In this document: piece by piece, positions 18,888 to 21,851 of the stretch
Numbering within the stretch: position 1 is the stretch's first letter
Layout: the number at the start of each line of letters is the position of its first letter
Source of the DNA: an uncultured Aquimarina sp.
Lineage (GTDB): Bacteria > Bacteroidota > Bacteroidia > Flavobacteriales > Flavobacteriaceae
Length of the DNA: 45,662 bases
Reading direction: 5' to 3'
Assembly (NCBI GenBank): GCA_938011245.1
Contig: CALLUJ010000009.1
Coordinates: forward strand, 1-45,662
Program-made: the position numbers and the translations under genes
Notes under the pieces: generated by a model
What the model saw: the letters and a program-made list of their open reading frames with translations, nothing else
Database searches by the model: none
Told to the model about the DNA's origin: nothing

Positions 18888-19397
18888 ATGACACCAAAAA
18901 AACCATCCAATTCTTATACAATACAAACAGATATTGTACTTCCTAGCGAAACTAATTCTCTAAATCATCTTTTTGGAGGAGAATTATTATCGCGTATGGA
19001 TAGGGCTGCCAGTATTGCTGCTAGAAGACACTGCAACCAGACCGTAGTTACAGCCTCTGTAAATCACGTCTCATTTAACATACCCATACCCTTAAATAGT
19101 GTTGTTAGTGTTGTTGCCAAAGTTTCTAGAGCTTTTAAAACTTCTATGGAAGTAATTATTGATGTTTTTATTGAGAATACTGAAAACAGTACCAAACAAC
19201 AAGCTAATCAAGGAATATATACATTTGTAGCTGTAGATAATAACACTAAGCCCATGGCTGTTCCCAAAATTATTCCTGAAACTCCAGAAGAACATACTCG
19301 CTTTGAAGCTGCGTTAAGAAGAAAGCAATTAAGTCTAATTCTAGCTGGAAGACTTAAACCTAACGATGCTAGTGAATTAAAAGCTCTTTTTAAATAA
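18888..19397 (+). CDS. Acyl-CoA thioesterase (hotdog fold, YciA/BFIT type)
   Basis: A 169-residue single hotdog domain. The catalytic helix region reads N-x-x-G-G-E-L-L-S-R-M-D (LNHLFGGELLSRMD), followed by A-A-S-I-A-A-R-R-H and TASVNHVSF, as in YciA-type acyl-CoA hydrolases. It would release free fatty acid from acyl-CoA; chain length cannot be read. The stop codon lies within the T-run of a minus-strand terminator that belongs to a candidate small RNA. Confidence 0.85.
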   Translation: MTPKKPSNSYTIQTDIVLPSETNSLNHLFGGELLSRMDRAASIAARRHCNQTVVTASVNHVSFNIPIPLNSVVSVVAKVSRAFKTSMEVIIDVFIENTENSTKQQANQGIYTFVAVDNNTKPMAVPKIIPETPEEHTRFEAALRRKQLSLILAGRLKPNDASELKALFK

Positions 19398-19486
19398 AAA
19401 AGACTGCCTTTACAGGCAGTCTCACATTCACCTTATAATAAATGAAAAAGTAACCAACTTAAATATTCACACTCTAAACTATAAGA
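19396..19486 (-). ncRNA. Candidate small RNA 1 (minus strand)
   Basis: On the minus strand a TAGTTTTG box (19499-19492, fits TAnnTTTG) precedes about 90 bases that end in a hairpin with eight-base arms AGACTGCC/GGCAGTCT (19401-19422) and six T residues: an intrinsic terminator facing the minus strand. A CTTATA/TATAAG pair could enclose a large AT-rich loop that holds TTTAAGTTGGTT. Candidate RNA 2 carries the same 12-base core in a similar loop. No open frame with an ATG start fits. Predicted only from promoter, terminator and shared motif. Confidence 0.4.
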
Positions 19487-19582
19487 CAGTGCAAAACTAT
19501 ATATATTTCACATTTTGTCTACTTCTAATCAATTTTTTAAACTTAATAAATCGACAAAAAACCAATAAAAACGTTTAATTAC

Positions 19583-19667
19583 AAAAAAAGACCCTGATTT
19601 GAGGAAAATAAATATTATCAACCAACTTAAAAATACACAAACCCTCTCAGGGTCAATTCTTATAATT
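19583..19667 (-). ncRNA. Candidate small RNA 2 (minus strand)
   Basis: On the minus strand a TATATTTG box (19681-19674) precedes about 85 bases ending in seven T residues. The ends pair: GACCCTGA/TCAGGGTC (eight bases) plus an inner GAGG/CCTC with a three-base bulge, forming a terminator-like closed stem with a loop of about 38 bases. That loop holds TTTAAGTTGGTT with GTGT just upstream and ATTTATT downstream, the same order as in candidate RNA 1. The remainder of the 435-base gap (19398-19832) shows no gene. Confidence 0.4.
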
Positions 19668-19796
19668 TTCCTACAAATATATAAAAAAACTCATTTATTA
19701 GGTTAAAGAATACATTTGTATCGACTAAATGCAAATTGCTTCTTTTTTAAATAAAAAAGACTTTAAAAAACAAATAGTATATAAATATTAGTACAT

Positions 19797-19804
19797 TAAC
19801 TTTG
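19797..19804 (+). promoter_or_regulatory. Candidate -7 element for the M3 peptidase gene
   Basis: TAACTTTG, 28 bases before the ATG. A second match, TACATTTG, lies further upstream at 19711-19718. Neither has a TTG box at the proper spacing. Confidence 0.35.
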
Positions 19805-19832
19805 AATATGAAATTCTGTAATTATCATTTTA

Positions 19833-21851
19833 ATGAAAAACCCTTTATTATCGGCGTTTTCGACGCCACCGTTCTCAAAAATTGAAAATACTCATTTTCT
19901 TCCTGCTTTTAAAGAAGCCATTGAACTGGCTAAAAACGAAATAAAACAAATTTCTGAAGCTACTGCAAAACCCACCTTTCAAAACACTATCGAAGCTTTA
20001 GAATTTAGCGGGGAATTATTAAGCAATATTTCTTCTATCTTCTTTAATCTAAATAGTGCTGAAACTAATACTCAAATTCAAAACATAGCCCAGGAAGTTT
20101 CTCCTTTGTTATCTGAATTTGGAAACGATATTACACTAAATGAACATTTATTTTTAAAAGTAAAAAGCGTTTTCGACAATAAAGAGCATTTTAATCTTAA
20201 TCAAGAACAAAATCAACTTTTAGAGAAACACTACAAGTCTTTTACTAGAAATGGTGCATTATTAAATGAAGATGACAAAAAAAAATTACGTGAAATAGAT
20301 AAAAAACTCTCGCAAAAAACTTTACAATTTGGACAAAATCTTCTAGCAGACTCTAATAACTTTGAATTACATATTACTCATAAAGAAGACCTTAAAGGCT
20401 TACCAAAAAGTGTTATTGATAGCGCAAAAAATTTAGCTAAATCAAAAAATAAAGAAGGTTATTTAGTTACTTTAGATTACCCTAGTTATATTCCTTTTAT
20501 GAAATATGCAGAAAGTAGAGCGCTAAGAAAAGAGTTAGCTCTTGCTTTTGGTGCCAAAGGATTTCAAAATAATGAGAACAACAATGAAATTTTAATTAAA
20601 GATATTATTAACCTTCGCTTAGATCGCTCTAAATTATTAGGCTATTCTACACACGCTCATTTTACCTTAGAGGAACGCATGGCTAAGTCCCCCGACAATG
20701 TGTTTGATTTTTTAAATGATTTATTAGATAAAGCAAAACCCGCTTCTGTAAAAGAGTTTAAAAAATTACAAGATTTTGCACAGAGTTTAGATGGTATTAA
20801 AACATTAGAAAAATGGGATAGTGCTTATTATAGTGAAAAATTAAAACAAAAACTGTTTAATATAGATGACGAAGTCCTAAAGCCTTATTTTGAATTAAAA
20901 AATGTAGAGAGAGGAGTTTTTACTATTGCTAAAAAGCTATTTGGGCTTCATTTTAAAGAAAACATTATTGCAGACAAATACCACGAAGACGTTACCGTAT
21001 ATGATGTGTACGATGCCGAAAATAATTATGTTTCTCTTTTCTATACCGATTATCATCCTAGAGAAGGAAAACGAGCAGGAGCATGGATGACATCTTATCG
21101 TTCTCAAAAAATTCAGAATACGATTAATCATCGCCCACAAGTATCTATAGTTTGTAATTTTACTAAACCTACAGAAACAACACCTTCATTATTAACTTTT
21201 AATGAAGTAACTACACTTTTTCATGAATTTGGCCATGCTCTTCATGGGATGTTAGCAAACACCACATACCCAAGTCTTTCTGGAACTTCGGTATATTGGG
21301 ACTTTGTTGAACTTCCTAGTCAAATTATGGAGAATTGGTGCTTTCAAAAAGAAGCCTTAACACTTTTTGCACAGCATTACAAAACTGGTGAAACAATTCC
21401 TATGGAGTATATAGAAAAAATAAAAGCATCATCAACGTTTCAAGAAGGTATGGCAACACTTCGACAATTAAGTTTTGGGTTACTAGATATGGCTTGGCAT
21501 ACCGTTACTTCAAGTAATAATATAGATATTAAAACATTCGAAAAAGAGGCTTTCAAAAAAACTCAACTATTTCCAGATGTACCTCAAAATTGTATGAGTA
21601 CTTCATTTGCACATATCTTTCAAGGAGGGTATTCTTCAGGGTACTATTCTTATAAATGGGCAGAAGTTTTAGATGCCGATGCCTTTGCATACTTCGAAAA
21701 AGAAGGAATTTTCAATGTAAAGATTGCTCAAAAGTTTAAAACCGAAATTCTACAAAAGGGAGGGACTGAACATCCAGAAACTCTATATCAAAACTTTAGA
21801 GGCAAAAAACCTTCTAATAAATATTTGTTAAAGCGAGCTGGATTGTTATAA
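19833..21851 (+). CDS. M3-family oligopeptidase (peptidyl-dipeptidase Dcp / oligopeptidase A type)
   Basis: A 672-residue zinc metallopeptidase. The HEFGH motif is at residues 464-468 (LFHEFGHALHG), with the third ligand region in FVELPSQIMENW and the substrate-binding GGYSSGYYSYKW near the C-terminus. There is no signal peptide, so it should act on peptides in the cytoplasm, as OpdA and Dcp do. The N-terminal helical half (about 1-250) is the usual family lid. It is a lone transcription unit followed by a small hairpin. Confidence 0.92.
   Translation: MKNPLLSAFSTPPFSKIENTHFLPAFKEAIELAKNEIKQISEATAKPTFQNTIEALEFSGELLSNISSIFFNLNSAETNTQIQNIAQEVSPLLSEFGNDITLNEHLFLKVKSVFDNKEHFNLNQEQNQLLEKHYKSFTRNGALLNEDDKKKLREIDKKLSQKTLQFGQNLLADSNNFELHITHKEDLKGLPKSVIDSAKNLAKSKNKEGYLVTLDYPSYIPFMKYAESRALRKELALAFGAKGFQNNENNNEILIKDIINLRLDRSKLLGYSTHAHFTLEERMAKSPDNVFDFLNDLLDKAKPASVKEFKKLQDFAQSLDGIKTLEKWDSAYYSEKLKQKLFNIDDEVLKPYFELKNVERGVFTIAKKLFGLHFKENIIADKYHEDVTVYDVYDAENNYVSLFYTDYHPREGKRAGAWMTSYRSQKIQNTINHRPQVSIVCNFTKPTETTPSLLTFNEVTTLFHEFGHALHGMLANTTYPSLSGTSVYWDFVELPSQIMENWCFQKEALTLFAQHYKTGETIPMEYIEKIKASSTFQEGMATLRQLSFGLLDMAWHTVTSSNNIDIKTFEKEAFKKTQLFPDVPQNCMSTSFAHIFQGGYSSGYYSYKWAEVLDADAFAYFEKEGIFNVKIAQKFKTEILQKGGTEHPETLYQNFRGKKPSNKYLLKRAGLL

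Follow-up and report, generated by a model that had tools for sequence, protein, structure and literature searches.

Two putative sister small RNAs beside an M3 peptidase gene represent a conserved Aquimarina family

The locus and its two tandem units

The window—the whole stretch of DNA analysed, 45,662 nucleotides from an uncultured Aquimarina sp.—contains a 435-base gap (19398-19832) between a thioesterase ORF and an M3 peptidase ORF (Table 1). A sequence-only reading had singled this region out as the sole long gene-free stretch of the interior, and among ORFs of at least 80 aa no two neighbours in the interior lie further apart. The same reading placed two tandem units, each with a TAnnTTTG box and a terminator, on the minus strand. 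Both boxes are present, and at the end of each unit, A and B, a T run follows a GC-rich hairpin; in B, this terminator extends as far as the stop codon of the thioesterase gene, which is convergent. The conclusion that 19396-19668 (minus strand) encodes two presumably transcribed sister small RNAs (sRNAs) is well supported.

Table 1. Coordinates of genes and proposed RNA features in the window
Feature	Position	Strand	Basis
M3 family peptidase gene	19833..21851	+	Pfam PF01432, E 8e-140; divergent; conserved neighbour of the RNA
4HBT thioesterase gene	18888..19397	+	Pfam PF03061; convergent
Promoter -7 box of A, TATATTTG	19674..19681	-	Sequence; TAnnTTTG conserved in the genus
Putative small RNA A, ~86 nt	19583..19668	-	Start inferred from promoter, end from T run; R1 58.6 bits
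Left arm, closing stem of A, GACCCTGA	19647..19654	-	Sequence, predicted fold; compensatory change in L163/L185
Right arm, closing stem of A, TCAGGGTC, then T7	19590..19597	-	Sequence, predicted fold
Shared core TTTAAGTTGGTT of A	19620..19631	-	Shuffle test, predicted fold
Promoter -7 box of B, TAGTTTTG	19492..19499	-	Sequence; similar box in most of 11 aligned B-type copies
Putative small RNA B, ~92 nt	19396..19487	-	Sequence; R1 34.9 bits; predicted fold
Left arm, core-enclosing stem of B, UCUUAUA	19480..19486	-	Covariation, predicted fold
Right arm, core-enclosing stem of B, UAUAAGG	19431..19437	-	Covariation, predicted fold
Shared core TTTAAGTTGGTT of B	19452..19463	-	Shuffle test
Terminator hairpin of B, AGACTGCC/GGCAGTCT, T run to 19396	19401..19422	-	Sequence, predicted fold

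The 12-base core claimed for both units, TTTAAGTTGGTT, is exact in A and in B and occurs nowhere else in the window. In dinucleotide-shuffled windows it appears 0.05 times on average, with two copies in 0/100, and the pair is therefore not attributable to chance. The further claim that ATTTATT follows the core holds loosely, with A reading GATAATATTTATT and B reading ACTTTTTCATTTATT.

Both units fold better than their shuffles, with z -2.7 for A (4/200 as good) and z -3.3 for B (0/200). The two cores are displayed differently, and the earlier picture of a core loop inside a GC stem stands for A only. In A, the GACCCTGA/TCAGGGTC stem closes the loop with predicted pair probabilities of at least 0.98 and, because T7 follows it directly, doubles as the terminator; an inner AU hairpin is predicted, with GUUGG of the core left unpaired at its tip. 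In B, the stem named for this role, AGACTGCC/GGCAGTCT, has a small loop and is the terminator, 3′ of the core, while the core itself is enclosed by a separate AU-rich stem, UCUUAUA/UAUAAGG. For a transcript starting at 19487, this stem is predicted with a probability of 0.93 for six of its seven pairs and 0.53 for the outermost; a fragment starting at 19491 is predicted to fold without it. The B core is predicted to be 47-95% unpaired. A possible second seed in B is UUUUUCAU, the complement of AUGAAAAA starts.

The covariance-model search proposed at the outset was carried out with a model, R1, built from 46 Aquimarina A-type copies (see below), among them unit A of the window. R1 recovers both units, including B (E 1e-5), which was outside the training set; the next best place in the window reaches 19.1 bits.

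Distribution and structure across the genus

Sixty-six Aquimarina genomes were searched with the pattern GTGT-N3..6-TTTAAGTTGGTT-RNT, in which the GTGT box was required because the bare core matches many unrelated sites; a bare-core search was swamped by these, including tandem arrays of ~187 bases. The core with its GTGT box is present in 62/66 genomes (56/58 good ones), usually once, and the reversed pattern in 0/66. The exact pattern is absent from the good genomes G008 and G089. BLAST of a 316-base stretch against relatives returned mostly AT-rich noise, with G005 and G007 alone informative.

Two types occur in the genus, A (GTGTAATATATTTAAGTTGGTTAAT) and B (GTGTGAATATTTAAGTTGGTTACT and near variants), and unit A of the window is a diverged form of the first. 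By exact pattern, 50 genomes carry A only, seven B only, and five both (G000, G005, G007, G051, and G093); 'B only' is an upper limit, since loci L163 and L185 carry an A unit that lacks GTGT and is missed by the pattern. G039 has two A copies separated by a 100-N gap, and the two matches in G084 are a single B copy on two overlapping contig ends.

The tandem arrays have units of ~187-205 bases, each with TTTAAGTTGGTT, and are seen at L044 (4786-5534), L046 (5240-5616), and L218 (1501-1706). Such arrays occur in five Aquimarina genomes (G001, G002, G004, G086, and G096).

The genomic address of the RNA is nearly fixed: a divergent M3 peptidase gene lies within 1.5 kb of 50 of the 53 distinct copies with enough upstream DNA. 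The exceptions are two B copies, L032 and L154, which are ~3 kb off, and L192, which has 1.1 kb of upstream DNA only. At L053, a convergent purE is the next gene downstream of the RNA. Among the loci compared, the thioesterase gene adjoins the RNA only in the window and in its closest relatives, L123, L163, and L185. The sequence-only reading had named absence of the core and stems from close relatives with the same gene order as evidence against itself; in L163 and L185, the order thioesterase - B - A - M3 and both units are kept, and the A stem reads GGCCCTGT/ACAGGGCC in place of GACCCTGA/TCAGGGTC, with pairing compensated. L123 keeps B and the gene order, A having been sought there by exact pattern only.

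Across the genus, the stems change in sequence while keeping their pairing. In the A type (46 copies, 42 distinct rows), 99.1% of closing-stem cells are paired, and changes on both sides are found in five of its eight pairs. Over the whole structure, double changes affect 11 pairs against 5.1 in shuffles for the 42 distinct A rows, and 13 against 5.5 for the 11 B rows. For cells paired, double changes, and covariation score, 0/500 shuffles are as high in either type, and for further pair types, 4/500 reach the observed value in A and 0/500 in B; because the sequences are related, these shuffle counts are not probabilities. Every measure falls when the partner is slid by 1-3 columns, a comparison in which these structures have some advantage, each having been drawn from one member of its set.

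Upstream, TAnnTTTG is found in 52 of 54 distinct A-type stretches, and TTG stands exactly 19 bases before it in 46/54, against 0/54 for a control stretch downstream. We take TTG-N19-TAnnTTTG to be the Bacteroidota promoter; in the window copy of unit A, the -33 TTG is unrecognisable.

In the A type, 41 loop bases have conservation values of 0.93-1.00; the search pattern itself sets 25 of these, leaving 4 before and 12 after that are free of it. The left stem has 0.65-0.85, the sequence past the terminator mostly 0.3-0.6, and the sequence upstream a mixture of values. TAA triplets can be seen by eye in the frozen loop. Inner folding differs between the types; GUUGG is predicted to be open in A, and its UUGG presumably conforms to YUNR, the loop rule for antisense RNAs.

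The elements thus have, by sequence, the own promoter and intrinsic terminator of a trans-acting sRNA, together with a conserved, covarying structure, and the RNA and its predicted structure are well supported by comparison across the genus. The view of the sequence-only reading that duplication had left a selected loop between unlike but intact stems is borne out by comparison, and the compensatory stem changes for which it proposed to test occur genus-wide: the loop is nearly invariant and the stems covary.

Core complements before start codons and a proposed mechanism

The core complement, AACCAACTTAAA, stands no more than 20 bases before an ATG at 139 places in the 66 genomes; dropping tandem arrays (15 copies), the RNA itself (2 copies), and nested rows (2) leaves 120. 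Of two 12-mers with matching dinucleotide composition, one is found at 53 such places, or 50 once nested rows are taken out, and the other at 65; the reversed pattern gives 47. The two shuffled words amount to nearly one control, as they overlap by 11 letters and have 20 places in common, and all near-ATG counts are inflated by related genomes and paralogues. In a second comparison, the core was counted 206 times in 43 genomes, leaving 150 sites once 46 RNA copies and 10 tandem-array copies were removed. An ATG follows within 20 bases at 73 of these 150, compared with 192 of 618 CTTAAA sites in Aquimarina DNA (P ~5e-6, an optimistic value since the genomes are related and relatedness is ignored). 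The over-representation of AACCAACTTAAA before ATG fits, by comparison, the suggestion that the loop is a pairing or binding site.

At some places the complementarity runs further. The match extends by six more bases (TATATT) in 4 of the 120 sites (in G005, G009, G048, and G052) and in 0/53 and 0/65 control places, with ~0.26 expected at an assumed base frequency of 0.36; this extension was sought after examples had been noticed. The longest complement, in G005 (L242), runs for 24 bases up to the A that opens the start codon of a gene for a secreted protein, and a 19-base complement precedes a lipoprotein gene in G048 (L199). The spacer to ATG peaks at 9-11 bases (34/96 unique strings versus 6/44, P 0.009, a peak noticed afterwards); for a 7-13 bin, core complement sites do not differ significantly from the control (P 0.15). 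Pairing of the loop with mRNA starts, which the sequence-only reading had proposed to predict, was computed for the A loop and six chosen leaders. The weakest duplex, with L230, has -18.0 and the strongest, with L242, -34.6 kcal/mol; for 200 simple shuffles per leader, the means are near -12 and the best shuffle falls between -20.0 and -25.5. Five of the six leaders beat their best shuffle; the exception is L230 (-18.0 versus -20.0), one of two leaders taken from the 90-95 aa protein family described below. As the leaders were picked for their match, these energies are illustrations and not tests.

The commonest candidate target is a 90-95 aa protein (MDTLEKERIVKKN...) found in 49/66 Aquimarina genomes. 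Of 51 orthologous places found, 50 were read; the exact 12-mer is present in 19 of the 50, beginning 21-25 bases ahead of the true start, and a form with one mismatch in 4, some of these with unlike surroundings. Eleven further orthologues share another leader, and their genomes keep the RNA. The loci concerned are L209, L225-L231, and L243 plus orthologues, with the leader 12-mer conserved in part of the clade. Other candidate targets are an MKIQFRF lipoprotein (L199, L233, and L234), proteins that are BLUF-like by inspection (L200 and L236), an MRRKEEF protein (L239 and L240), and a set of repeated secreted proteins that have AACCAACTTAAAATTACACAAAATG or near variants of it, in which the GTGT part is matched too (L045, L049, L051, and L052). 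The window's own genome has two core complements before ATG: one (L238) precedes a 444-aa ORF, membrane acyltransferase-like by inspection, and the other (L237) an ATG without an ORF of 50 aa.

The best explanation, which we hold with a probability of about 0.6, is that A and B are paralogous trans-acting sRNAs of one conserved Aquimarina family and that pairing by their loop blocks translation. Comparative sequence analysis establishes the family, with its structure, promoter and terminator sequences, synteny, and complementary leader sites; transcription, pairing, and repression we infer. Each sRNA would be made from its own promoter and end at its intrinsic terminator. A stable closing stem, free in sequence but not in pairing, would display the nearly invariant AU-rich loop, within which GUGU..AUAUUUAAGUUGGUUAAU would act as the seed, with GUUGG at the tip of the inner hairpin. 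This tip would meet CCAAC in an mRNA leader, the seed pairing with UAACCAACUUAAAUAU..ACAC stretches that most often lie 9-11 bases before the start codon. Pairing would then zip along UUAAAUAU and cover the initiation region, keeping the ribosome off the start codon. Since the loop is complementary to stretches just before several gene starts, the RNA probably switches those genes down, and the outcome would be lower translation of several surface, secreted, and small proteins; repression is assumed here from the position of the sites. Where A and B co-occur, dosage or partly different targets may come into play.

Relatives, rival explanations, and known RNAs

A pattern scan of contigs gave 107 stretches, of which 80 were listed, and 39 listed non-Aquimarina loci were inspected by eye (L105, from a Flavobacteriaceae MAG, being excluded). 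Among these matches, three carry the RNA or a relative (L097, L110, and L130) and 36 were judged to be chance; in 9 of the 36 the core complements a gene start, about the background rate for ATG. In a search of 299 Flavobacteriaceae genomes, R1 had matches at E 1 or better in 42, including two Aquimarina genomes. Sixteen loci were inspected; five look genuine (L367, L368, L370, L375, and L376), and the rest are noise or unclear. Relatives recovered by R1 come from one other genus (G103 and G336, 46-49 bits), the G103 copy adjoining its M3 gene, and from G207 (L353, 41.6 bits), with the core changed to TTTAGAATGGTTAATAAATA. L353 was missed at its true place by a strict-filter R1 search and recovered by a later one.

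Of 69 regions that lie upstream of M3 in other Flavobacteriaceae, 47 contain purE and 28 hold another RNA-like element, designated F-type: 26 with TTAATAGC (27 sequences aligned) and two variants, many with a GAGT..ACTC hairpin and terminator. The layout is often GAGTGACTAACTC hairpin - TTGATTAATAGC - terminator, as in the M3-purE gaps of L286, L293, L298, L304, and L325-L363, and the element occurs twice in L293. Four F-type loci compared with Rfam gave nothing over cut-off, the best match being BSnc120 on the opposite strand (32.1 bits versus 114). On 26 F-type loci, R1 has a weak overlapping match in L337 and L330 (17-18 bits) and none up to E 1 in the others, and common descent of the F-type and A-type elements is accordingly put forward as a hypothesis. 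L370 and the Paucihalobacter type (L110, L130, L375, and L376) carry TTAAGTTGGTTAATAGC, and these carriers are a possible bridge. In L110 (5626-5690) and L130 (5745-5808), which come from Paucihalobacter and a Flavobacteriaceae MAG, TTTAAGTTGGTTAATAGC and a terminator lie beside a gene end that is fabH-like by inspection, and these loci contain no M3 gene. A broader reading, held tentatively and with the odds against it, is that the Aquimarina RNA is one branch of an old, Flavobacteriaceae-wide RNA of the M3-purE gap, whose loop (TTAAGTTGGTTAATAAA, TTAGAATGGTTAATAAA, TTAAGTTGGTTAATAGC, TTGATTAATAGC) shifted stepwise together with its leaders and without an RRM partner. If true, it would give a natural series for seed-target co-evolution.

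Among the rivals to leader pairing, the strongest accepts the RNAs as real and proposes that a protein binds the frozen loop, either a chaperone or, by analogy with 6S RNA, RNA polymerase, with the leader complement being secondary or coincidental. The loop is conserved over ~40 bases, beyond the need of a 7-12 base seed, and the exact site is missing in most orthologues of the commonest candidate target; Bacteroides FopS sRNAs are described in PMC11697453 as binding the RRM protein RbpB in a single-stranded region. Against this stand the leader sites, which exceed their controls, the lack of a match to any Rfam family (6S-Flavo included), and a chaperone search covering the RRM_1 type, in which no RRM_1 (PF00076) protein was found in the window's genome. 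We regard a protein site as unlikely, albeit a serious contender.

It is improbable that the RNA is the Aquimarina form of a known sRNA, whether Rfp18 of Flavobacterium psychrophilum or FopS of Bacteroides. Conservation of Rfp18 throughout the genus Flavobacterium is reported in PMC9723704, as is predicted pairing of its third stem-loop with mRNAs for metalloproteases; three Flavobacterium loci are among the 80 matches listed of 107, however, and the core there only complements a gene start. The FopS consensus AUUUAAGGUUAAUAAA resembles the A loop by eye, and unit B scores 24.4 bits with the FopS model (RF04319), but the gathering cut-off is 56 bits, so membership was rejected, and unrelated places in the same genome reach 21.8 bits. 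This background figure is the best place reported by a fast first look over the whole genome, in which unit B did not appear. The element could instead act at the DNA level, as terminators combined with a divergent promoter or operator for the M3 peptidase gene, and yield no functional RNA. This would suit the position upstream of M3 in 50/53 copies and the palindromic pieces ATATTTA/TAAATAT that flank the core in A-type copies, but it is very hard to reconcile with stems that keep pairing through sequence change with arms ~60 bases apart, with a promoter and terminator of shared orientation, and with the distance of the B copies in L032 and L154 from M3.

For the preferred reading of a trans-acting sRNA family, the comparison with known families is as follows. 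An Rfam scan of the window placed no family past its curated threshold, and ten related loci gave nothing up to E 1. In the gap, the best sub-threshold matches (to E 10) are Phe_leader (26.6 bits, cut-off 55) and the FopS match already noted, both of which take in the terminator. Like the Aquimarina RNA, 6S-Flavo of Flavobacteria, which we take to be Rfam RF01685, has a closing stem that carries a large bubble; 6S and 6S-Flavo were absent from the Rfam matches of the window, the ten relatives (E 1), and the gap (E 10).

FopS and GibS, as described in PMC11697453, are short Bacteroidota RNAs with their own promoter and terminator and with paralogous copies, whose conserved unpaired region pairs near start codons. 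The Aquimarina RNA shares the promoter, terminator, and paralogues, and Aquimarina B carries a similar UUUUUCAU; it differs in that its core lies in a closed loop and in its one or two copies, compared with 14 for FopS. The FopS partner RbpB is there of the RRM type, whereas RRM_1 was not found in the window's genome: PF00076 had 0 matches in that genome (99% complete, 151 contigs), so that a link to FopS and RRM is not supported, two of 14 control genomes being positive, one of them a Bacteroides. Rfp18 of F. psychrophilum (PMC9723704) is a tested Flavobacteriaceae sRNA, conserved and structured. The Aquimarina RNA resembles it as a conserved structured sRNA of the same bacterial family, Rfp18 having predicted stem-loop pairing with secreted-protein mRNAs; compared by description only, Rfp18 has at least three stem-loops and the Aquimarina RNA a closing stem, an inner hairpin, and a terminator (PMC9723704).

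Among the matches listed by a literature search of openly licensed PMC papers, the excerpts returned contain no description of the Aquimarina RNA. On the Rfam comparison and these matches, the kind of RNA (a trans-acting sRNA) is a known one and the family is, as far as these show, probably new, its comparison with Rfp18 being one of descriptions. We regard it as a real, genus-wide, unannotated sRNA family, judged from sequence, with a paralogous pair in the window. To our knowledge, few sRNA families have been described in Flavobacteriaceae. This one is near-universal in its genus and keeps a fixed place in the genome, and its predicted structure is clear; with its proposed seed and candidate leader sites, it would therefore offer a practical way into the study of post-transcriptional control in marine Bacteroidota.
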